The position numbers were made by a program, and so were the translations under genes. Positions 6,059 to 18,139 of a stretch of 64,000 bases of DNA are shown piece after piece; positions within the stretch are counted from its first letter, which is position 1; every line of letters begins with the position of its first letter. This stretch comes from Paludibacter jiangxiensis (GTDB taxonomy: Bacteria > Bacteroidota > Bacteroidia > Bacteroidales > Paludibacteraceae), in assembly GCA_945870155.1 (NCBI GenBank), contig CAMBSB010000004.1:20134-84133 (forward strand), written 5' to 3'. The notes beneath the pieces are model-generated. The model saw only the letters and a program-made list of their open reading frames with translations. It did not search any database and was not told where the DNA came from.

Positions 6059-7207
6059 ATGTATATAAAAAATAAGACTATCAATTTAAAATACATTGAA
6101 ATTATCATTTATTTCATTATTTGGTTAAGTGTATTCACTTTACCTTACTTTATTCATCGCGAAAATTATATAGTAGATTGGGAAAAAGTAATAATTGAAT
6201 GGCTGAGATTATTCGCATATTTAACTATTTTCATACTAAATGTTTATTTACTCATCCCTAAATACCTCTTTAACAAAAACTATAAATTATATATTAGCCT
6301 TTCTATTTTAACTATTATTTTTGTATTAAGTTCGAGTATTGCTTTACAAAAATTCTTAAAACCATCAAACACTTTATCCATGCCACCCATGGAAATTGGT
6401 CCTGGTATGCCACCCATGGAATTAGGAAACAATATGCCTGCACCAATGGGTTACAGAGCACCAAAAGCACCAATGGAAAAATCGCTATTTATGATTATTG
6501 TTGATAATCTGATAATTGCATTTTTGGTTTTTGCGGCTGGAACTACTATAAAACTAATGACTCGTTGGCTCAACGAAGAAGAAAAAAGGAAAGATGTGGA
6601 AAAGGAGCAATTGAAAACTGAACTTGCACTTTTAAGACATCAGGTAAGTCCGCATTTTTTTATGAATACGCTTAACAATATACACGCATTGATTGATATA
6701 AATTCAGATACAGCCAAAGATGCAGTTATCAGACTTTCTACATTGATGCGATATTTGCTTTACGAAACTTCCCATGGTCAGACTAGTCTACAAAAAGAAA
6801 TTGATTTTATTGAAAGTTACATTATACTCATGCAACTAAGATTTTCAAAAAAAGTGAAAATCACACTCGATATTCAAAAAAAGCTACCGGCAATTCAAAT
6901 TCCTCCTATGCTTTTTATAACGTTTATTGAAAATGCATTTAAACATGGTGTAAGTTATCAGAACGAATCATTTGTTATTTTTAAGCTCCAATTAATTGAT
7001 AATCAGATTATTTGCAAAATAAAAAACAGCAAAAACAAACAAGTAGAAAATTACAATAAATCATATTCCGGAATAGGTTTAACTAACATTCGAAAAAGTT
7101 TAAATTTGCTTTTTGAAAACGATTATTATTTAAATATTACCGAAAATGAAAAAGAATTTGAAGTTGATTTAAAAATACCAATTTACAATAATAACATAAG
7201 CTCATAA
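6059..7207 (+). CDS. LytS-family sensor histidine kinase
   Basis: Four hydrophobic segments; LRHQVSPHFFMNTLNNIHALI (His_kinase motif), PPMLFITFIENAFKHG and GIGLTNIRKSL. Confidence 0.92.
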   Translation: MYIKNKTINLKYIEIIIYFIIWLSVFTLPYFIHRENYIVDWEKVIIEWLRLFAYLTIFILNVYLLIPKYLFNKNYKLYISLSILTIIFVLSSSIALQKFLKPSNTLSMPPMEIGPGMPPMELGNNMPAPMGYRAPKAPMEKSLFMIIVDNLIIAFLVFAAGTTIKLMTRWLNEEEKRKDVEKEQLKTELALLRHQVSPHFFMNTLNNIHALIDINSDTAKDAVIRLSTLMRYLLYETSHGQTSLQKEIDFIESYIILMQLRFSKKVKITLDIQKKLPAIQIPPMLFITFIENAFKHGVSYQNESFVIFKLQLIDNQIICKIKNSKNKQVENYNKSYSGIGLTNIRKSLNLLFENDYYLNITENEKEFEVDLKIPIYNNNISS

Positions 7208-7376
7208 AAATTTTATAACGAACTATTATAAATCAGTTAAACATAAAACACTAATTTTTAGCGAGAAACATATCACTATAATCAAGCAAAAACACATGAA
7301 ACTTACATGTTCAAAATTAAAAATTTGGACAAAAGGTGAAGATATATCATTATTTAAAAAACATAATTACCTGTCA

Positions 7377-7406
7377 AATTCCCCCTTTAGGGGGATAGGG
7401 GGCAGA
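7377..7406. repeat. GC-rich dispersed palindromic element, copy 1 (AATTCCCCCTTTAGGGGGATAGGGGGCAG)
   Basis: Near-identical to the copy at 8247-8275. Confidence 0.8.
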
Positions 7407-7423
7407 TAAAATATTATAAACCT

Positions 7424-8140
7424 ATGAAAATAAAGTGCTTGGCAATAGACGATGAACCTTTGGCATTAGAACAAATTAGCATATACATTGACAAAACTCC
7501 TTTTCTTGAAAAAGTAGCTTTGTGCCAAAGTTCTTATGAGGCTATAGAGTTTTTATCAACAAACGAAGTAGATTTGATGTTTGTTGACATAAATATGCCT
7601 GACATAAACGGCATAGACTTAGTAAAATCATTAGCGAATAAGCCACAGATAATTTTCACAACAGCCTACAGTGAATATGCTATCGAAGGTTTTAAAGTGG
7701 ATGCAATTGATTATATCTTAAAACCAATTAGTTACAATAACTTTTTAAAGGCTGCCAACAAAGCTTTTTCATGGTTCGAGTTAAATCAAAAACAGCCTGA
7801 AACTCTACAAACCACACAAGATTCATTATTTGTAAAATCGGAATATAAGTTAATAAAAATCATGCTTTCCGAAATAAAATATATTGAAAGTGCCAACGAA
7901 TATGTTCAAATTCATATTGATAACGAAAAACCAATTTCAACACTGATTCGACTGAAAAATATGGAAGAGCAACTTCCTAAAAACCACTTTATGCGTGTAC
8001 ACCGCTCATTTATTGTGAATCTCGATAAAGTGAAAATAATTGACCGCAATCGCATAGTTTTTGACAAAGTATATATTCCTATTGGCGATCAATATAAAGA
8101 TGTTTTTCAAGCTTTTATTGATAAAACATTTTTGGTTTAG
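7424..8140 (+). CDS. LytTR-family response regulator
   Basis: Receiver domain (CLAIDDEPLA, MFVDINMPDINGIDL, FTTAYSEYAIEGF) and LytTR DNA-binding domain (FMRVHRSFIVNLDKV). Confidence 0.94.
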   Translation: MKIKCLAIDDEPLALEQISIYIDKTPFLEKVALCQSSYEAIEFLSTNEVDLMFVDINMPDINGIDLVKSLANKPQIIFTTAYSEYAIEGFKVDAIDYILKPISYNNFLKAANKAFSWFELNQKQPETLQTTQDSLFVKSEYKLIKIMLSEIKYIESANEYVQIHIDNEKPISTLIRLKNMEEQLPKNHFMRVHRSFIVNLDKVKIIDRNRIVFDKVYIPIGDQYKDVFQAFIDKTFLV

Positions 8141-8246
8141 CATTTTTATAAATAATTTATATTAAATTAGAATACCCCTGAATAAATAAAAGTTAGAACA
8201 CATAAGTAGATGATTAAAGATTACTAAAAAAATTATTAACTATATA

Positions 8247-8275
8247 ATTCCCCCTTCAGGGGGCTAGGGGGCAGG
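8247..8275. repeat. GC-rich dispersed palindromic element, copy 2 (AATTCCCCCTTCAGGGGGCTAGGGGGCAG)
   Basis: Near-identical to the copy at 7377-7406. Confidence 0.8.
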
Positions 8276-8294
8276 TATAAAAAAATTAATTCAA

Positions 8295-10367
8295 ATGAAA
8301 AAAATCATATTATCACTAATCATTTTATTTACAGCACAATACATTTTTAGCCAAAGCATAAAATCTATAAATATAACAACGGCAGGTACTTTAAAAGACA
8401 ATATAAGTTTAACAGAACAAAAAACTGTAACTACACTTACAGTTTCGGGTAATATTGATGCACGTGATTTTGCTTTTATGCGCGATAAAATGCAAGTTTT
8501 GTCAGTTCTCGATTTAAATTCTTCTGTAATTAATAGTTATACAGGAATTCAGGGCACTTATTCCGGTTCAAACACAGTGTATCCTGCAAACGAAATTCCT
8601 GTATATGCTTTTTTCAATCCACTATTATATACTTATAAATCATCGCTTACAAGCATAAAATTTCCCTCAACAACCACAAAGATTGGGACACAAGCATTTT
8701 ATTATAGTTGGAATTTGGCTGGCACAATAAATATACCGGCATCATTGACATCGATTGCCGATTATGCTTTTTATGGTTGTTCGTCAATTGCATCATTCAC
8801 TGTAGCTAACTCAAATACACGATTTTCGGCCTTAAATGGTGTGCTTTTTAACAAAATTCAGGACAGTTTATTTGTTTTTCCTCCGGCAAAAAGTGGTTCA
8901 TACACCATTCCAACTACTGTAAAACATATTGGCGCATCGGCATTCGAGAGCTCATATAATTTAACTTCAGTAATAATTCCAAATACTATAACAAGTATTG
9001 GAAGTTATGCATTTTCATATTGTTCGGGCATTTCGGGTGCTTTAACTTTACCAACATCTTTAAAAAAACTAGGCGATGGTGCATTTTATGGTTGTTCGAA
9101 ACTTACAAGTGTAACAATTCCAGCTACATTAACCGATATTGGTTATTACTGTTTTCTCGAAAGTAATTTAGTTACAGCCTTTAACGTAATTTCATCAAAC
9201 CCTGATTATACTTCGGTGGATGGTATGTTGATGAGTAAAAACCAGGACACTCTTTTTAGTTGTCCACCGGCTAAAACAGGTCCGATTACTGTACCAAGTA
9301 CAGTGAAACTAATTGGAAGTTATGCTTTCTACAATTGCACAAAAATTTCCGGTACATTAACAATTCCAGCTTCGGTTGATTATATTGGGAATTATGCATT
9401 TTACAACAGTTCACTTATCTCATCTTTCGAAGTAAACCCGCAAAATTTATATTTTACTGCCGAAAATGGAGTTTTATTCTCAAAAACCAAAGATCGTTTA
9501 TTGGTTTACCCGGTTGCAAAATCAGGTGTGTATCAAATGCCTAGAACTATAAAAACAATCGATCCGGCTGCATTCGCTTTTTGCTCAAGTATAACCGGCA
9601 CATTACAATTACCCGCATCGGTTACATCAATTGGCCTTTATGCATTTTATAATTGTACACAAATTTCAGCCCTTGATGTTGATGCCGGAAACAAGGAATA
9701 TTCCTCAGATAATGGTGTATTATATAAACATGAAATGGATACTCTATTAATTTGTCCATTAGGTAAAACAGGAAGTTATACCATTCCAGAAAACGTGAAA
9801 TATATTAGTTATTCTGCATTTGGAGGATGTAGCGGCATCACTTCAATTACATTTCCAACAACTCTGACAGGTATAGGCAATTATGCTTTTGCATATTGCA
9901 CTGGGTTAAGCAAAATTCAAATTTCTAAAAGCACATCAAACATTGCAAATGGAGCCTTTTATAGTTGCTCAAATTTAGTTGAAATTAGCATTGTCAACCC
10001 GGAACCTCCTATAGTTGATTATTACACTTTTGATTTGGTAAATAAAACTACTTGTAAACTTATTGTTCCTACAGGATCTAAATCTACTTATCAAACCGTG
10101 CCATATTGGAGTGAATTTATAAACATTTCAGAAAGCGAATTTTCCAACAAAATTGAGGTTCAAAAAATAGATCAACATGTTTATGTGCAAAACAATGGAA
10201 TAATGGTTGAAGAATTAAAACTTGGTGAACTGATTGAAATATTTAGCATTGAAGGACGAAAACTCATTTCAGAAAAAGCTACATATCAAAAAAAGTTTTG
10301 GAGATTACCCTCAAATTCAATATATTTGGTGAAAATATCAAATAATGTTTTTAAAATATCACTATAA
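8295..10367 (+). CDS. BspA-like leucine-rich-repeat surface protein with probable T9SS C-terminal domain
   Basis: Signal peptide; repeated IPASLTSIADYAFYGCSSI-type LRR_5 units; C-terminal IEIFSIEGRKLI...SIYLVKISN. Confidence 0.88.
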   Translation: MKKIILSLIILFTAQYIFSQSIKSINITTAGTLKDNISLTEQKTVTTLTVSGNIDARDFAFMRDKMQVLSVLDLNSSVINSYTGIQGTYSGSNTVYPANEIPVYAFFNPLLYTYKSSLTSIKFPSTTTKIGTQAFYYSWNLAGTINIPASLTSIADYAFYGCSSIASFTVANSNTRFSALNGVLFNKIQDSLFVFPPAKSGSYTIPTTVKHIGASAFESSYNLTSVIIPNTITSIGSYAFSYCSGISGALTLPTSLKKLGDGAFYGCSKLTSVTIPATLTDIGYYCFLESNLVTAFNVISSNPDYTSVDGMLMSKNQDTLFSCPPAKTGPITVPSTVKLIGSYAFYNCTKISGTLTIPASVDYIGNYAFYNSSLISSFEVNPQNLYFTAENGVLFSKTKDRLLVYPVAKSGVYQMPRTIKTIDPAAFAFCSSITGTLQLPASVTSIGLYAFYNCTQISALDVDAGNKEYSSDNGVLYKHEMDTLLICPLGKTGSYTIPENVKYISYSAFGGCSGITSITFPTTLTGIGNYAFAYCTGLSKIQISKSTSNIANGAFYSCSNLVEISIVNPEPPIVDYYTFDLVNKTTCKLIVPTGSKSTYQTVPYWSEFINISESEFSNKIEVQKIDQHVYVQNNGIMVEELKLGELIEIFSIEGRKLISEKATYQKKFWRLPSNSIYLVKISNNVFKISL

Positions 10368-10571
10368 CATGTTGAATTATTAACAGCTCAACTATTTGTT
10401 TACAAATGAAACTGTAATAATTATAGAAATCAAAGAATTGTAAAAAGGATAAAACAGACTTTCACTGAATTTAATAGATTGTTTACTGAATTTATTTGTC
10501 AAAAGTGTGCTACAATAGTAATTTTGAATTATTAAAAATCAAAATTATTCATCTATTAAAAATTTAAAGTC

Positions 10572-11252
10572 ATGAAAAAAGAAAATTTATTTATTGCAAC
10601 TTTTTTGGGTGTAGCACTTAGTTTTTGTGCATGTCAGAGCAATGATGCTCTTAACAGTGAAATTTTAGCTCCTGAAGTTGAACAGGCAGTTAGCAATGAA
10701 ATTGAAAGTACTGATGGTTTGATGCAAGTATCTTCCTTTACTTCAAATCCTATTTCACTTACAGATGCTGAAAAATCAGGTTTGTATTTGATGCGTGAAG
10801 AAGAAAAAATGGCACGTGATGTATATAGTTTTTTCTATACAAAATTTAAATTTCGTATATTTGGGAATATCACTAAAAGTGAAAATGTGCATTCAAATGC
10901 TGTTTTAAGACTTATTACTTATTTTGGGTTAACTGATCCGGCTGTAGCAACTGTTGCAGTTTTTAAAGATCCTACTTTGCAGGCGCTTTACAACAAATTT
11001 ACTACAGAAGCAACTACTGTTGATCAAGCATTGAAAACAGGAGCATTTATCGAAGAATATGATATTGCCGATTTAAAAAGATTAATAGCAGAAACACAAA
11101 ACAAAGACATCAAGTTGGTGTATGGTAATTTGATGAGAGGCTCAGAGTTTCATCTGAAAGCATTTACCGGTGTTTTAAAATTAAGAGGTATAGTTTATGT
11201 ACCAACAATTCTTTCAATAGAAGAATATAATTTAATAATTGCGAAAAAATAG
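10572..11252 (+). CDS. DUF2202 ferritin-like domain lipoprotein
   Basis: Lipobox SFCACQS; LYLMREEEKMARDVYSFFYTKF and GSEFHLKAFTGVL typical of DUF2202. Confidence 0.82.
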   Translation: MKKENLFIATFLGVALSFCACQSNDALNSEILAPEVEQAVSNEIESTDGLMQVSSFTSNPISLTDAEKSGLYLMREEEKMARDVYSFFYTKFKFRIFGNITKSENVHSNAVLRLITYFGLTDPAVATVAVFKDPTLQALYNKFTTEATTVDQALKTGAFIEEYDIADLKRLIAETQNKDIKLVYGNLMRGSEFHLKAFTGVLKLRGIVYVPTILSIEEYNLIIAKK

Positions 11253-11713: not shown

Positions 11714-12769
11714 ATGAGTAAAGACATTAAACATAAAATTGTAATTGCAGTAACAGGCTTGAATGCCATTGATAGTCCGGGGCCAGGTGTAGCTGTAATA
11801 AGAGCGATACGTGAATGTCCCGATTTTGAAGTACGTATCATTGGATTGTCATACGAATCGCTTGAGCCTGGATTATATATGCACGATTTGGTAGATAAAA
11901 CCTATCAAATTCCCTATCCAACAGCTGGAACTGATGCACTAATGGGTAGAATACAATATATACATGAAAAAGAAAACTTAGAACTAATCATACCCAATTT
12001 TGACGCAGAACTTTTTAATTTTATGAAATTACGTGATGCGCTAAAAAAAATGGGGATAGCCACATTTATGCCCGATTTGGATCAATTCGAAGCACGGGAT
12101 AAAATGAAATTATTCGAATTTGGTAAAAAACATGATTTTTGCGTACCCAAGGACAAAATTATTCATGAGTTTAGAGAATTGGCTCAACTCGAAAAAGATT
12201 TTGAATATCCTATGGTAATAAAAGGTAAGTTTTACGATGCTATTATTGCTAATAGTATGGAGCAGGTTGAAAAAGCCTTCTATAAAATTCTATCCAAATG
12301 GGGATTACCAATTATTGTCCAGGAATTTATAAAAGGAACTGAGATAAATATAGCTGCATTGGGCGATGGCGAAGGAAATGCTATAAGTGTGATACCTATG
12401 CGAAAACTCTATATCACTGATAAAGGAAAAGCTTGGGCCGGTATTACCCTCGACGATGAAAGTTTTATTGAATTGGCTCAAAAATTTATTAAAGCTACCA
12501 AATGGCGTGGAGGGTGTGAGTTGGAAGTAATGCTAAGCTACGATGGAAAACCTTACATAATGGAAGTCAATCCACGATTCCCTGCTTGGATTTACCTTAC
12601 AGCTGCTGCCGGTCAAAATCAGCCTGCTAGCTTAGTTAAAATGGCTTTTGGTCAAAAAGTAGAACCATTTACAGAGTACGAAGTAGGAAAAATATTTGTT
12701 CGCTACGCTTGGGATTTAATAACTGATATCAGGGAGTTTCAAAAAATATCGGGAAATGGGGAACTCTAA
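11714..12769 (+). CDS. ATP-grasp (CarB-like) ligase
   Basis: YPMVIKGKFYDA, IIVQEFIKGTEINIAALGD, GGCELEVML...PYIMEVNPRFPAWIYLTAAAG. Confidence 0.88.
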   Translation: MSKDIKHKIVIAVTGLNAIDSPGPGVAVIRAIRECPDFEVRIIGLSYESLEPGLYMHDLVDKTYQIPYPTAGTDALMGRIQYIHEKENLELIIPNFDAELFNFMKLRDALKKMGIATFMPDLDQFEARDKMKLFEFGKKHDFCVPKDKIIHEFRELAQLEKDFEYPMVIKGKFYDAIIANSMEQVEKAFYKILSKWGLPIIVQEFIKGTEINIAALGDGEGNAISVIPMRKLYITDKGKAWAGITLDDESFIELAQKFIKATKWRGGCELEVMLSYDGKPYIMEVNPRFPAWIYLTAAAGQNQPASLVKMAFGQKVEPFTEYEVGKIFVRYAWDLITDIREFQKISGNGEL

Positions 12770-12813: not shown

Positions 12814-14163
12814 ATGGAAAAATTAAGATACGAAAGGCCATTCATAATTAAAATGAACGCCGGATTAATGAATAAATTTGGTTCAAAAACTGAAAATGAG
12901 CCTGTTACACATATCGAAAGTGTAGCTGTTAAAAGCTTAATGAATGAATATGGGTCACCGCTATTTGTAATTTCCGAAAAACAAATCAGACGTAATTATC
13001 AGAATGCACAACGCATTTTTAAAACCCGTTATCCAAAAGTACAATTTGCATGGTCATATAAAACCAATTACAACAATGCTGTGTGTCGAATTTTCCATCA
13101 GGAAGGTTCGTGGGCCGAAGTGGTTTCGGGCTTTGAATACGAAAAAGCTCTCGGAAATGGCGTTTCGGGCAGTAAAATAATTTTCAACGGACCTGATAAA
13201 AGTGATAAAGACTTGATTACAGCATCCCAAAATGGTTCATTGATTCATATCGATCATTATGATGAATTATATACTTTGATTCGGTTGAGCGAAGAAAACA
13301 ACCTGAAACCACGTGTTGCCATTCGTGTTAATATGGATACAGGCATTTATCCAAAGTGGGACAGATTTGGCTTTAATTTCGAAAACGGTCAAGCTTGGAA
13401 TGCCTTAACGCGAATTATCAATTCCCAAAACCTCGAACTTGTAGGAATTCATTGCCATATAGGTACTTTTATGCTTTCGCCTAATGCGTATGCCATTGCT
13501 GCCCGTAATTTATGTGAGTTAGCGTGGACAGCTAAAGAACGTTTTGGAAAAATGGTTCAATACATTGATCTTGGTGGTGGATTTCCTTCAACCAATACAC
13601 TCAAAGGTGCTTATTTACCCGGAACAGATACAGTTCCATCTATCGACCAATTTGCCGATGCTATTTCCGATGTTATTCTTGGCTATGGTTTTAAGCAGGA
13701 CGAATTGCCTTTGCTGATTCTCGAAAGTGGTCGTGCTTTGATTGACGATGCCGGATATTTGCTAGGTACTGTACTAGCGACCAAACGATTATCAGATGGC
13801 AGGCGTGCTACAATTATGGATTTTGGATTAAATTCATTGTTCACATCGCTGTGGTACGAACATAAAATAAGTCCGGCTCAAAAATTGGGCAATCAAAACG
13901 AAGAAATGGTCATGTTTGGACCGCTTTGTATGAATATTGATGTAGTTCGTGAAAGTATAAACATGCCAATGTTACAAAAAGGCGATCAGGTAGTAGTGCA
14001 TAAAGTAGGAGCATATAATATGACGCAATGGATGCAATTTATCACCTATCGTCCGGCTATAGTTTTGATTGATACCGAAAATAATACACATATTATTCGC
14101 AAAGGCGAAGATTTGAGATACATGGAGGAATTGGAAAACATCCCGGAACATTTAAAATCGTAA
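12814..14163 (+). CDS. PLP-dependent decarboxylase, DAP/ornithine decarboxylase fold (LysA-like, not necessarily LysA)
   Basis: FAWSYKTNYNNAV (PLP Lys), VGIHCHIGTF, YIDLGGGFPS, LILESGRALI, MFGPLCMNIDVV. Confidence 0.88.
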   Translation: MEKLRYERPFIIKMNAGLMNKFGSKTENEPVTHIESVAVKSLMNEYGSPLFVISEKQIRRNYQNAQRIFKTRYPKVQFAWSYKTNYNNAVCRIFHQEGSWAEVVSGFEYEKALGNGVSGSKIIFNGPDKSDKDLITASQNGSLIHIDHYDELYTLIRLSEENNLKPRVAIRVNMDTGIYPKWDRFGFNFENGQAWNALTRIINSQNLELVGIHCHIGTFMLSPNAYAIAARNLCELAWTAKERFGKMVQYIDLGGGFPSTNTLKGAYLPGTDTVPSIDQFADAISDVILGYGFKQDELPLLILESGRALIDDAGYLLGTVLATKRLSDGRRATIMDFGLNSLFTSLWYEHKISPAQKLGNQNEEMVMFGPLCMNIDVVRESINMPMLQKGDQVVVHKVGAYNMTQWMQFITYRPAIVLIDTENNTHIIRKGEDLRYMEELENIPEHLKS

Positions 14164-14178
14164 TTGAGATAGAAAAAT

Positions 14179-16392
14179 ATGAGCATTCCCAAACCATTAG
14201 TGTTTTTGCAAAAAGAAGTATTACCGGCAATTTTAAACAGTTATTCTATTATCTTTTTTTTAGATAATAAGGTTTTAGCATCCACAATAATGTTGGTAAG
14301 TTTTTTTAATTTCTGGGCCGGTTTTAGTGGACTAGTTTCGGTTTTAATTGCTTTAACCATAGGCTATTCCATGCATCTTGATAAACAAACGCTTCGAAGT
14401 GGATTGTTTACATTTAATGCGTTATTGGTAGGTATTGGGATGGGTACATTTTTCGATCCGGGACTCGTATTTTTCAGTTTACTGGCATTGGCTTCATTGT
14501 TAACTATTTTACTCTCAGTAAGTTTTTCAAGTTGGTTTGGAAAATACAAATTACCATTTCTAAGTGTGCCGTTTGTAATAACATTTTGGTTTATAGTACT
14601 TCCTTCTTCTCATTTTGAGAACTTAGGTTTAACGCAACGAAGTATTTACTGGATAAACGAAGTGTATGCAGTTGGTGGTAATAATTTGCTTGATTTTTTT
14701 CAAACTGTCGACAATTTTAAAGTTAATTCACTGATTGATATTTACTTAAAATCTATCGGCTCAATTTTGTTTCAAAGCAATGTGTTAGCTGGCTTATTGA
14801 TTTCATTAGCATTACTTTATAGTTCACGTATATTATTTTCATTGTCGGTAATAGGTTTTTTATCGGCCTATTTCTTTGCACAATTTACCGGCTCGGAAGC
14901 AGCAAGTATAAATTATTACAATATTGGTGCTAATTACATGATGGTTGCATTTGCCATTGGTGGGTATTTTATTATTCCATCCAAACAGTCGTATCTTTGG
15001 ACAGTTTTGCTTATACCACTCACTTCCTTAGTTTTATTGTTTTTTTATAAACTCTTATCCTACATTCAGTTACCGGTATTTTCGTTGCCATTTTCGTTTG
15101 TAACAATATTGTTTCTATATTTCCTTCAAATGAGAACTCAGGTAAAAAGTCTTATTATCACCCCATTACAACAAAATTCACCTGAAAAAAATTTATATAC
15201 TTTCAGCAATAATAAAGATAGATTATCCGGTTTGTATTATATACCTTTGCATTTACCGCTGATGGGAGAATGGACTGTAACACAGGCACATAATGGAGAA
15301 ATAACACACAAAGGAGATTGGGGGCAAGCTTTCGACTTTATGATAACAGACCATGAAGGAAAAACCTATAAAAACAATGGCATAGCACTAAGCGATTTCT
15401 TATGTTATAATAAACCAGTATTTGCTGCAGCCGATGGTTATGTTGAGTCAATAATCGATTCGGTGGAAGACAATGTAATAGGAAAAGTAAACACAGTTAG
15501 CAATTGGGGAAATAGCATTGTAATTCGTCATGCATCCGGCTTATATACACAGCTGTCGCACCTAAAAAAAGGTTCATTTAAAGTAACTAAAGGCGATTTT
15601 GTAAATAAAGGCGATATGTTGGCACTCTGTGGAAATTCAGGACGTTCACCCGAACCGCATGTACATTTTCAGGTACAGATATATCCTATAATTGGATCAA
15701 GAACAATAACTTATCCTTTTGCATATTATTTCAAACAACTTGCAGATGACAAACAGCAATTGGTTCAATTCGAAATACCAAAACTTGGAGATAAAATTAG
15801 TAATGTTTCAATTGACAAATTTCAATTTAATGCATTTAACTTATTACCCGACAGTTCGTTTACTTTTAAATATACACTCAACAATTCAGTTGAGAAAAAT
15901 CTAAGTTGGGATATATATACTGATGCTTACAATCAAAAATACGTACATTGTTCGCAGACTAACTCAGTTGCATATTTTGTTAACGATGGGTATATGTTTT
16001 ATTTTACAGCGTTTTATGGTGATAAATCTTCTATACTTTATTACTTTTTTCTATCTGCTTATAAAATATTTTTGGGTGAAACAACTAAAAACCGCTTGGA
16101 TGATTCATTGGCTTTAAGCATGTTAGCAAGTTCAAAATTTTATACTTGGATAAACGATTTTATTGCACCATTCTATAATTTTATCCGTGTAAGTTTTCAT
16201 TCAAATATTATTGAATCCGAAATGTCATTGAATAAAGGAACCATTAAATATAGTTCCGAAATTGAATTGAAATACCTGAAAAAATCAAAAATAATTAGTC
16301 GTTCGGAACTCACAATTAACGAGACCGGTATTACTGCTTTTGAATATACAAATGATAAAATAAAGATGAAAGCCACATGTATAAACCTCTGA
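14179..16392 (+). CDS. Urea-transporter-family membrane domain fused to C-terminal M23 (LytM) peptidase domain
   Basis: UT-like NFWAGFSGLVSVLIALTIGYSMHLDKQTLRSGLFTFNALLVGIGMGTFF; M23 motifs HKGDWGQAFD and SGRSPEPHVHFQVQIYP. Confidence 0.85.
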   Translation: MSIPKPLVFLQKEVLPAILNSYSIIFFLDNKVLASTIMLVSFFNFWAGFSGLVSVLIALTIGYSMHLDKQTLRSGLFTFNALLVGIGMGTFFDPGLVFFSLLALASLLTILLSVSFSSWFGKYKLPFLSVPFVITFWFIVLPSSHFENLGLTQRSIYWINEVYAVGGNNLLDFFQTVDNFKVNSLIDIYLKSIGSILFQSNVLAGLLISLALLYSSRILFSLSVIGFLSAYFFAQFTGSEAASINYYNIGANYMMVAFAIGGYFIIPSKQSYLWTVLLIPLTSLVLLFFYKLLSYIQLPVFSLPFSFVTILFLYFLQMRTQVKSLIITPLQQNSPEKNLYTFSNNKDRLSGLYYIPLHLPLMGEWTVTQAHNGEITHKGDWGQAFDFMITDHEGKTYKNNGIALSDFLCYNKPVFAAADGYVESIIDSVEDNVIGKVNTVSNWGNSIVIRHASGLYTQLSHLKKGSFKVTKGDFVNKGDMLALCGNSGRSPEPHVHFQVQIYPIIGSRTITYPFAYYFKQLADDKQQLVQFEIPKLGDKISNVSIDKFQFNAFNLLPDSSFTFKYTLNNSVEKNLSWDIYTDAYNQKYVHCSQTNSVAYFVNDGYMFYFTAFYGDKSSILYYFFLSAYKIFLGETTKNRLDDSLALSMLASSKFYTWINDFIAPFYNFIRVSFHSNIIESEMSLNKGTIKYSSEIELKYLKKSKIISRSELTINETGITAFEYTNDKIKMKATCINL

Positions 16393-17534
16393 TATTTATA
16401 CTTTTAATCACTATTCCTTTACATGCTCAAATTACGATGGATGAGCAAAAAATTGACAGTTTAAGTTATAGTTACTACATGAGTGGCGACTGGAAGCAAT
16501 TAATTGAACTCGGAAAAGTAGCTGACAAAGAAGATGTGAATTTTAAGCATTTACAACAGCGTTTGGGTTATGCCAATTTTATGTTGGGAAATTATTACAA
16601 AACTATAAAACATTATACAAATGCCTTGCAATTTGATCCTACTGATCAAATTACGCATAGCTATTTGTATTATGCAGCCATTAATGTGGGTGATAATGAA
16701 ATGGCTATGTTTCATGCTTCGAAACTAAATAAAGAAGCTCAAAAAGTCATGAAATTGAAAAGATTGCAAGTGGTTGATGCCGTTGATTTTGAATTTAATT
16801 ACAAAATTAACGACAGTGATATTCGCTCAAATCCAAATTATACACGTATTGGAATAAATTCAAAACCTGATTTTCGATTTAATATTTATCAGTCCTTTTC
16901 ACAATATAACCAAACTAATGATTCAACAACTCAAGTAAAACAAAACGAATATTTCTTATTGTTATCTTACAGTTTATTTAGTAGAACAACAATGCGTTTT
17001 GGGTATCATTACCTGAATACTAAAGTGGATGATGCCATGTATAATTATAAAGATACAATAAAAACAAATGTGTTTTATGGTAATTTAAGTCAGCGAATTG
17101 GCAGGTTTGATTTGGGGCTAAGTAGCTCATTATTAACCGGCGATACTATACAAATTCAAACCGGTGCTCATATTGGATTAGCATTACCAGGTAAATTAAA
17201 ACCATATCTAAAATCTTCGTTGTATACAATAAGCCGAAACAATATTAACCGACTAATTTATTCCCAATCTGCCGGTATATTCGCTACAAAAAAATTGTGG
17301 CTCGAAGGCGAAATCACATTGGGAAATTTAGATAATTACGTAGAAAACAATGGATTATATGTTTACAATTCGCTTGATGCTACAAAATTCAGAGTTGGTA
17401 CAACTGCATTTTGGTATTTAGCTCCCAAAATTACTTTATTTGCAAATTATACTTACGACAAAAAACAAATAACAGATACTCAAATTTATTACAATCAAAA
17501 TTCATTATCAGGAGGATTTATATGGAAACTTTAA
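16377..17534 (+). CDS. TPR protein with C-terminal outer-membrane beta-barrel-like (YaiO-like) region
   Basis: Signal peptide; TPR-like segment; alternating amphipathic C-terminal strands ending SLSGGFIWKL; start overlaps upstream stop. Confidence 0.7.
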   Translation: MYKPLIFILLITIPLHAQITMDEQKIDSLSYSYYMSGDWKQLIELGKVADKEDVNFKHLQQRLGYANFMLGNYYKTIKHYTNALQFDPTDQITHSYLYYAAINVGDNEMAMFHASKLNKEAQKVMKLKRLQVVDAVDFEFNYKINDSDIRSNPNYTRIGINSKPDFRFNIYQSFSQYNQTNDSTTQVKQNEYFLLLSYSLFSRTTMRFGYHYLNTKVDDAMYNYKDTIKTNVFYGNLSQRIGRFDLGLSSSLLTGDTIQIQTGAHIGLALPGKLKPYLKSSLYTISRNNINRLIYSQSAGIFATKKLWLEGEITLGNLDNYVENNGLYVYNSLDATKFRVGTTAFWYLAPKITLFANYTYDKKQITDTQIYYNQNSLSGGFIWKL

Positions 17535-18139
17535 AATTCAGGATATTAGTTGTAACTGTTTTATTTTCAGGCTTATTGCTTAATGCACAAACAGCAGCTC
17601 GTCAATCAGCCTTTAGTAAAAGCTACGAATTAGAAAATGCATCGAATTATGCATCTGCAATAAAAGAAGTGAAAACTGTATTTGATACGGATGATTATTT
17701 TTGCAATATCCGATTGGGATGGTTGTATTATTTAAGTAAAAATTATACTGAATCAATCAAATATTACGATAAAGCCATTTCTTTAAAACCTTATGCCATA
17801 GAAGCCCGGTTTGGATGTATAAAACCATTAAGTGCAAGCGAAAATTGGGAAAAAGTGAAAGCACATTACTTACAAATTCTTAAAATAGACCCTCAAAACA
17901 CTACTGCAAACTACTGGTTAGGAGTTATTTACTATAATCGCAAGCAATATAGTTCCGCAGCCAATTTATTCGGTAAAGTAATAAATTTGTATCCGCTGGA
18001 CTACGATTCGGTGATTATGTTGGCATGGACAAAACTATATTTGGGAAAAATGGGGGATGCAAAAGTACTATTTAATCATGCACTTACCATTCGTCCTAAT
18101 GATGTTTCCGCAGTTGCCGGACTGAAGTTAATAAAGTAG
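17522..18139 (+). CDS. TPR protein, exported (true start probably 17522, not 17411)
   Basis: METLKFRILVVTVLFSGLLLNAQ signal peptide; TPR units; overlap with upstream stop fits translational coupling. Confidence 0.75.
   Translation: METLKFRILVVTVLFSGLLLNAQTAARQSAFSKSYELENASNYASAIKEVKTVFDTDDYFCNIRLGWLYYLSKNYTESIKYYDKAISLKPYAIEARFGCIKPLSASENWEKVKAHYLQILKIDPQNTTANYWLGVIYYNRKQYSSAANLFGKVINLYPLDYDSVIMLAWTKLYLGKMGDAKVLFNHALTIRPNDVSAVAGLKLIK

Follow-up and report, generated by a model that had tools for sequence, protein, structure and literature searches.

The first 23 residues of a decarboxylase encoded in a conserved four-gene operon of Bacteroidota would, on our reading, form a docking tail resembling the leader of a RiPP precursor, through which a PqqD-type protein joins the decarboxylase to an ATP-grasp ligase for joint chemistry. 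We consider this reading probable as a whole, in the absence of any experiment. Binding of the tail by PqqD is in itself very likely, an inference made without binding data; we are less sure that scaffolding is the purpose of that binding, and modification of the tail is the main rival. The evidence is computed, from the conservation of the tail, its linkage with PqqD, the residues of the pocket, covariation and predicted docking, and from it we infer a physical complex, a contact with the ATP-grasp ligase and the chemistry.

In the proposed mechanism, residues 4-15 would occupy the peptide-binding cleft of PqqD, a discrete RRE, in extended strand form and in the register of lasso and LPP leaders. 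Residue 6 (Tyr or Phe) would occupy a pocket beside PqqD position 64, followed by Pro9 and Ile11, and residues 11-15 would extend the PqqD sheet. Uniting the decarboxylase and the ligase, PqqD would assemble a complex of three proteins, where an amino-acid-type substrate would be ligated and the conjugate decarboxylated to an amino-acid-derived product, while residues 16-23, with Lys21, would point away from PqqD, probably to the ATP-grasp ligase.

The operon and the decarboxylase tail

The window, a 64,000-nucleotide stretch of the Paludibacter jiangxiensis genome, carries the four genes in the order PqqD, ATP-grasp, decarboxylase and urea-transporter/M23 fusion (Table 1), an operon conserved in Bacteroidota. 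The order from PqqD through ATP-grasp to decarboxylase is kept in nearly all loci whose contig extends far enough; two deviating orders are attributed to overlapping stop-to-stop ORFs, an explanation checked for L106 only. In all 70 of the loci that extend 1.5 kb or more past the decarboxylase, the fusion gene lies downstream of it. Our literature searches on the combination of PqqD, ATP-grasp, decarboxylase, urea transporter and M23 peptidase found no description of such an operon.

Table 1. Positions in the window of the operon genes and of the parts of the decarboxylase tail
Feature	Position	Strand	Remarks
PqqD-type discrete RRE, 79 aa	11434..11673	+	PF05402, E 1.7e-10; proposed tail receptor
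PqqD Asp64 codon	11623..11625	+	Equivalent to LppB D70 and PbaB1 Q79; partner of tail residue 6
ATP-grasp ligase, carbamoyl-phosphate-synthase-like	11714..12769	+	PF15632/PF02655; between the PqqD and decarboxylase genes
Fold-type III PLP decarboxylase (FslC/DAPDC/BtrK superfamily), 449 aa	12814..14163	+	PF02784/PF00278 (Pfam); N-terminal leader-like tail
Tail part 1, residues 4-15 (LRYERPFIIKMN)	12823..12858	+	Proposed PqqD-binding strand, from covariation and AlphaFold2
Tail part 2, residues 16-23 (AGLMNKFG)	12859..12882	+	Invariant Lys21; low pLDDT in both models; no predicted PqqD contact
Variable linker, residues 24-32	12883..12909	+	Near-constant length; mean information 2.36 bits
Urea-transporter domain fused to M23 peptidase	14179..16392	+	PF03253, E 1.9e-54; PF01551, E 7.2e-16; operon gene 4

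Several further features of these loci were noted. The peptidase part of the fusion protein is LytM-type, and two TPR proteins encoded after it on the same strand (16377-18139) may belong to the operon. Upstream lie a LytTR-type two-component pair (6059-8140), a BspA-type leucine-rich repeat protein (8295-10367) and a DUF2202 protein (10572-11252); nothing in this interval (6059-11252) indicated that these genes are operon members. Unusually long intergenic gaps of ~1-1.8 kb separate PqqD from ATP-grasp in L047, ATP-grasp from decarboxylase in L071, and decarboxylase from the fusion gene in L035 and L071. An apparent fusion of ATP-grasp and decarboxylase in L203 was rejected as a stretch of Ns in the assembled sequence, and a role in anti-phage defence was rejected after PADLOC gave no match.

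By both sequence and fold, the closest solved relative of the ATP-grasp protein is 2pn1, and its ExNPR motif is conserved. For the decarboxylase the nearest is FslC (7kh2; 28% identical in the structural alignment), with DAPDC and BtrK as further matches, and K83, H215, GGG254-256, E304, C372 and Y401 are conserved. Scores fell short of the NCBIfam cut-offs for both FslC (223.6 bits vs 500) and lysA (223.2 bits vs 297.9), so we left the substrate unassigned. Genome searches and a collection scan yielded 258 distinct homologues of the decarboxylase family, all from Bacteroidota where named, in Paludibacter, Pedobacter, Mucilaginibacter, Chitinophaga, Hymenobacter and other genera. Matches at E<=1e-40 occurred in 37 of 396 sampled Bacteroidota genomes, three of them distant only, and 119 of 295 genomes from the source genome's order, Bacteroidales, had a match.

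The decarboxylase begins with MEKLRYERPFIIKMNAGLMNKFGSKTENEP. A reading of the sequence alone had proposed that positions 12829-12882 encode a leader-like motif placed before the usual fold, and both parts of that proposal hold. These positions are exactly residues 6-23, which we regard as an extra tail because the catalytic domains begin at about residue 29-58 (Pfam/NCBIfam) and the alignment with 7kh2 starts at residue 30 only. The tail consensus is [YF]ExPx[ILV]xK...GxxxKxG, and [YF]xxPx[ILV] stands at residues 6-11 in 258/258 homologues, with Tyr at residue 6 in 213 and Phe in 45. Pro9 and Lys21 are each present in 258/258, Gly23 in 255 and Glu7 in 253. We placed the tail by searching for [YFWHL]xxPx[ILVM] near the N terminus; since zero sequences remained without this motif, the complete count is not an artefact of filtering. 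Mean information across 125 sequences is 3.39 bits for residues 6-23, 3.30 for the catalytic fold and lower for the linker (Table 1), and the distance from Tyr6 to GSP is identical (41) in 242 sequences, so that the length from tail to fold is near constant. By these measures, the tail is a conserved short motif carried on a variable linker.

The likeness to RiPP leaders holds for one part of the pattern that had been suggested. The YxxP-type RRE recognition sequence, [Y/W]xxPx[L/V/I/A/F/Y], is matched in 258/258 homologues with Tyr or Phe first; Phe at this position is absent from the published consensus. Lasso leaders follow YxxPxLxxxGxxxxxTx, with a penultimate Thr and the core peptide after it (PMC6856326). 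The tail fits YxxPx[ILV] but not this whole consensus: its Gly stands at Y+11 instead of Y+9, Thr is missing at its place, and an enzyme follows, so it does not qualify as a lasso leader. One divergent tail, YAPPTLRRLTAAPLSKFG in L165, has neither E7 nor G17 but keeps YxxPxL and K21, and the PqqD that goes with it is without the usual N27; this is a natural variant of the tail/PqqD pair.

The PqqD-like protein said to be encoded two genes upstream is indeed a member of that family (PF05402, 41.5 bits vs a curated cut-off of 23.4). Its nearest solved relative is the lasso RRE TbiB1 (5v1u/5v1v; E 7.6e-13 with the profile), followed by TfuB1 and PbaB1. In LppB, N33 and D70 hydrogen-bond the YxxP motif and F74 lines both pockets; mutation or structure shows that RRE positions of this type hold YxxP leaders (PMC13381572). 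Mapped through the 9x90 alignment of PbaB1 (G42, Q79, F83), these residues correspond to PqqD N27, D64 and F68, which are conserved in 101, 95 and 83 of 101 sequences, respectively, as membership among such RREs demands. In this set, the six exceptions to D64 are the six sequences whose tail has Phe6.

The tail was also found to accompany PqqD across genomes. In four sampled genomes where the decarboxylase is split off from the operon (G627, G684, G831, G800), and in the genome of L082, whose locus also lacks PqqD upstream, a PqqD of the family is encoded elsewhere (E ~1e-30), while three decarboxylases of ~30% identity (G203, G311, G346) have neither a family PqqD in the genome nor the tail. 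Homologue alignment thus shows the tail kept across the PqqD-linked family and absent from these PqqD-less relatives, so that within the sample it is not conserved independently of PqqD; the outgroup is three genomes and the search was not exhaustive. Lack of conservation with PqqD, or equal conservation without it, would have refuted the proposed recruitment, and neither was met with in the sampled genomes.

A profile of the tail found nothing above background outside the decarboxylase in 40 relative genomes, and the remaining ORFs of the loci gave a single chance match to the motif; a separate precursor elsewhere was rejected on these searches. Could the decarboxylase gene itself be the precursor gene, with cleavage of the tail setting a RiPP free? 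The leader-like sequence and its proximity to an RRE and an ATP-grasp enzyme invite this idea, but Pfam searches of the neighbours examined found no variable RiPP core, leader peptidase or lasso cyclase, and conservation runs up to residue 23 and then gives way to a short linker into the fold. We attach next to no weight to it. With a separate precursor, leader peptidase and cyclase missing, the locus does not qualify as a lasso or other RiPP gene cluster either. The tail works like a RiPP leader; since these searches gave no separate precursor, variable core, peptidase or cyclase, we do not class it as a RiPP precursor.

Covariation with the PqqD pocket and predicted docking

To look for coupling blindly, we scanned all 35,471 pairs of decarboxylase and PqqD positions by mutual information with average-product correction. 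The top pair (rank 1/35,471, z 16.7) was tail residue 6 and PqqD64. Among 230 pairs, the combinations were Y-D (176), Y-N (11), Y-H (1), F-Y (26), F-S (10), F-A (5) and F-H (1); F-D, and Tyr with Tyr, Ser or Ala, did not occur in any of them. By analogy with the LppB-leader crystal structure, this pair would be the Tyr-Asp contact seen there. Covariation of residue 20 with PqqD64 (rank 2-3) is read as indirect via residue 6.

Shared ancestry was addressed with FastTree phylogenies. On a decarboxylase tree built without the tail columns, residue 6 and PqqD64 each changed 8 times, in 6 cases on the same branch as the partner, out of 454 branches. When the two positions were simulated as evolving independently, a value as high as the observed one arose in 0 of 4000 runs on this tree and in 0 of 1500 on a second tree, from decarboxylase and ATP-grasp. 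Only 2-3 independent pairs of changes fall on strongly supported branches, and a sign test alone is not significant. Coevolution with the RRE pocket is a mark of YxxP-type recognition sequences that the tail shows.

Second in the scan came decarboxylase residue 4 and PqqD53 (z 11.6), positions that changed 25 and 34 times over the tree; Lys4 occurs with Lys or Arg53 once in 61, a pattern that looks like charge compensation. The backbone of the LppA leader is held at LppB E61, equivalent to PqqD 55. Residue 15 and PqqD22, ranked eighteenth, fit the antiparallel register of LppA -12 to -7 with LppB 33 to 27 (PMC13381572; renumbered here).

Structure prediction with AlphaFold2 pointed the same way. 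In the decarboxylase alone (75-row alignment), pLDDT was 60 for residues 1-10, 43 for 11-20 and 57 for 21-30, without secondary structure; the fold was above 80 throughout and mostly above 90. We also modelled a fused chain of PqqD, ATP-grasp and the first 65 decarboxylase residues from L006, a locus with all three genes in one reading frame (109-row alignment). This chain is an artificial read-through, with stops read as Ser and no scrambled control. In it, decarboxylase residues 4-13 reached a pLDDT of 97, with strands at 4-5 and 11-14 and disorder on either side, and a short strand appeared at PqqD 54-55. A tail disordered in the enzyme alone and ordered beside PqqD and ATP-grasp is the outcome that co-folding had been suggested to check, and the pattern is what RRE docking would give in such a model. 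That the tail would dock on PqqD instead of ATP-grasp is inferred from the strand pattern, without coordinates or contacts.

The decarboxylase-only model, being a monomer, cannot exclude an inter-subunit arm, and the tail might therefore be a structural part of the decarboxylase (a dimer arm or active-site lid) whose likeness to a leader is coincidental. This is scarcely credible to us: the tail lies outside the aligned part of the solved relatives, is absent from the three PqqD-less relatives, and has its covariation peak at the RRE contact, which largely contradicts such an arm. Recruitment of the decarboxylase by PqqD through a leader-like tail, as the sequence-only reading had suggested, is strongly supported by conservation, linkage, pocket residues, covariation and AlphaFold2, with no binding experiment.

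Lys21 and the ATP-grasp ligase

The second half of the tail is less easily accounted for. Residues 18-27 had a pLDDT below 50 in the fused model, as did residues 11-25 in the decarboxylase-only model, and the invariant Lys21 falls within this part; a pure docking role leaves its invariance unexplained. Residues 16-23 may contact the ATP-grasp ligase or be modified. The strongest covariation among 155,354 decarboxylase and ATP-grasp pairs linked residue 19 to alignment position 284, which is F289, directly after ExNPR (Met, Leu or Thr with Phe; Pro with Ile, Leu or Met). This signal would bring the second half close to the active site of the ATP-grasp ligase, where it could serve for docking or be the substrate, and is merely suggestive because the two positions changed just 5 and 2 times on the tree.

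Because Lys21 lies outside the PqqD-binding part, the idea that the N-terminal peptide is itself modified stays open. PqqD would then present the tail to the ATP-grasp ligase, with Lys21 as the most likely site. The near-complete conservation of Lys21 and Gly23 in a part apparently not touching PqqD, the constant length of the tail, the residue 19 signal beside ExNPR, and the presence among the solved relatives of two enzymes with conjugated amino acids as substrates, BtrK and FslC, all agree with it; the few changes behind that signal may however reflect shared ancestry, no modification has been shown, and Lys21 could equally be a salt-bridge residue. We regard a substrate role as unlikely, though worth keeping in view. 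Its strongest version, in which the ligase would attach an amino acid to Lys21 for the decarboxylase to decarboxylate there, on its own tail, while PqqD holds residues 4-15, likens the tail to a built-in carrier arm in the manner of BtrJ-BtrI-BtrK, and we think it improbable.

PqqD might instead regulate, stabilise or localise the decarboxylase through the tail without any joint work with the ligase, as the evidence for binding is independent of ATP-grasp. Two things count against this and make a role of that kind very doubtful: nearly every locus has the ATP-grasp gene placed between the other two, and PqqD binding alone would not require the conservation seen in the second half of the tail.

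Implications and comparison with known systems

RREs are relied on to flag RiPP clusters, and when a PqqD-like protein has no precursor close by, it is often deemed a false positive or a sign of an unknown RiPP (PMC7470986). Here a widespread PqqD has a ligand that seems to be an enzyme's tail, which precursor searches would miss. If this is true, metabolism can use leader recognition as a code for docking, and an ordinary metabolic enzyme is docked by a device for peptide recognition that is familiar from antibiotic-like peptides; if the carrier-arm version is true, a RiPP-style leader has become a swinging arm in the synthesis of small molecules. The tail also offers a handle on the otherwise undescribed operon.

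The decarboxylase differs from the N-citrylornithine decarboxylase FslC (7kh2) in scoring far below the NCBIfam cut-off and in being alignable only from residue 30. Butirosin biosynthesis (BtrJ/BtrI/BtrK) likewise combines an ATP-grasp enzyme with a fold-type III decarboxylase, and BtrK is among the solved relatives. Its carrier, BtrI, is an acyl carrier protein, whereas here a carrier gene is missing and PqqD and the decarboxylase tail stand instead.

With the discrete lasso RREs TbiB1, TfuB1 and PbaB1, the PqqD protein shares the fold, the N27/D64/F68 pocket positions and a YxxPx[ILV] ligand in a predicted strand; the ligand here is, by contrast, fused to a metabolic enzyme, and the precursor, B2 peptidase and cyclase of lasso pathways were not found among the neighbours examined. 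Elsewhere in the Paludibacter jiangxiensis genome itself (L031; G000:C36 near 29726), a second PqqD protein adjoins HPr-kinase-like and signal-peptidase-like ORFs and the start of an apparent ABC transporter; judged by eye from the ORFs, this locus resembles an LPP/lasso-type RiPP cluster. In the LPP system, the leader belongs to LppA, a precursor whose C terminus is variable, whereas the tail described here is part of an enzyme; LppB/LppA and our pair have in common the YxxPxV motif, the Tyr-Asp and Asn contacts and the strand register, and in both the RRE position 64/70 is matched to the leader's aromatic residue (PMC13381572).
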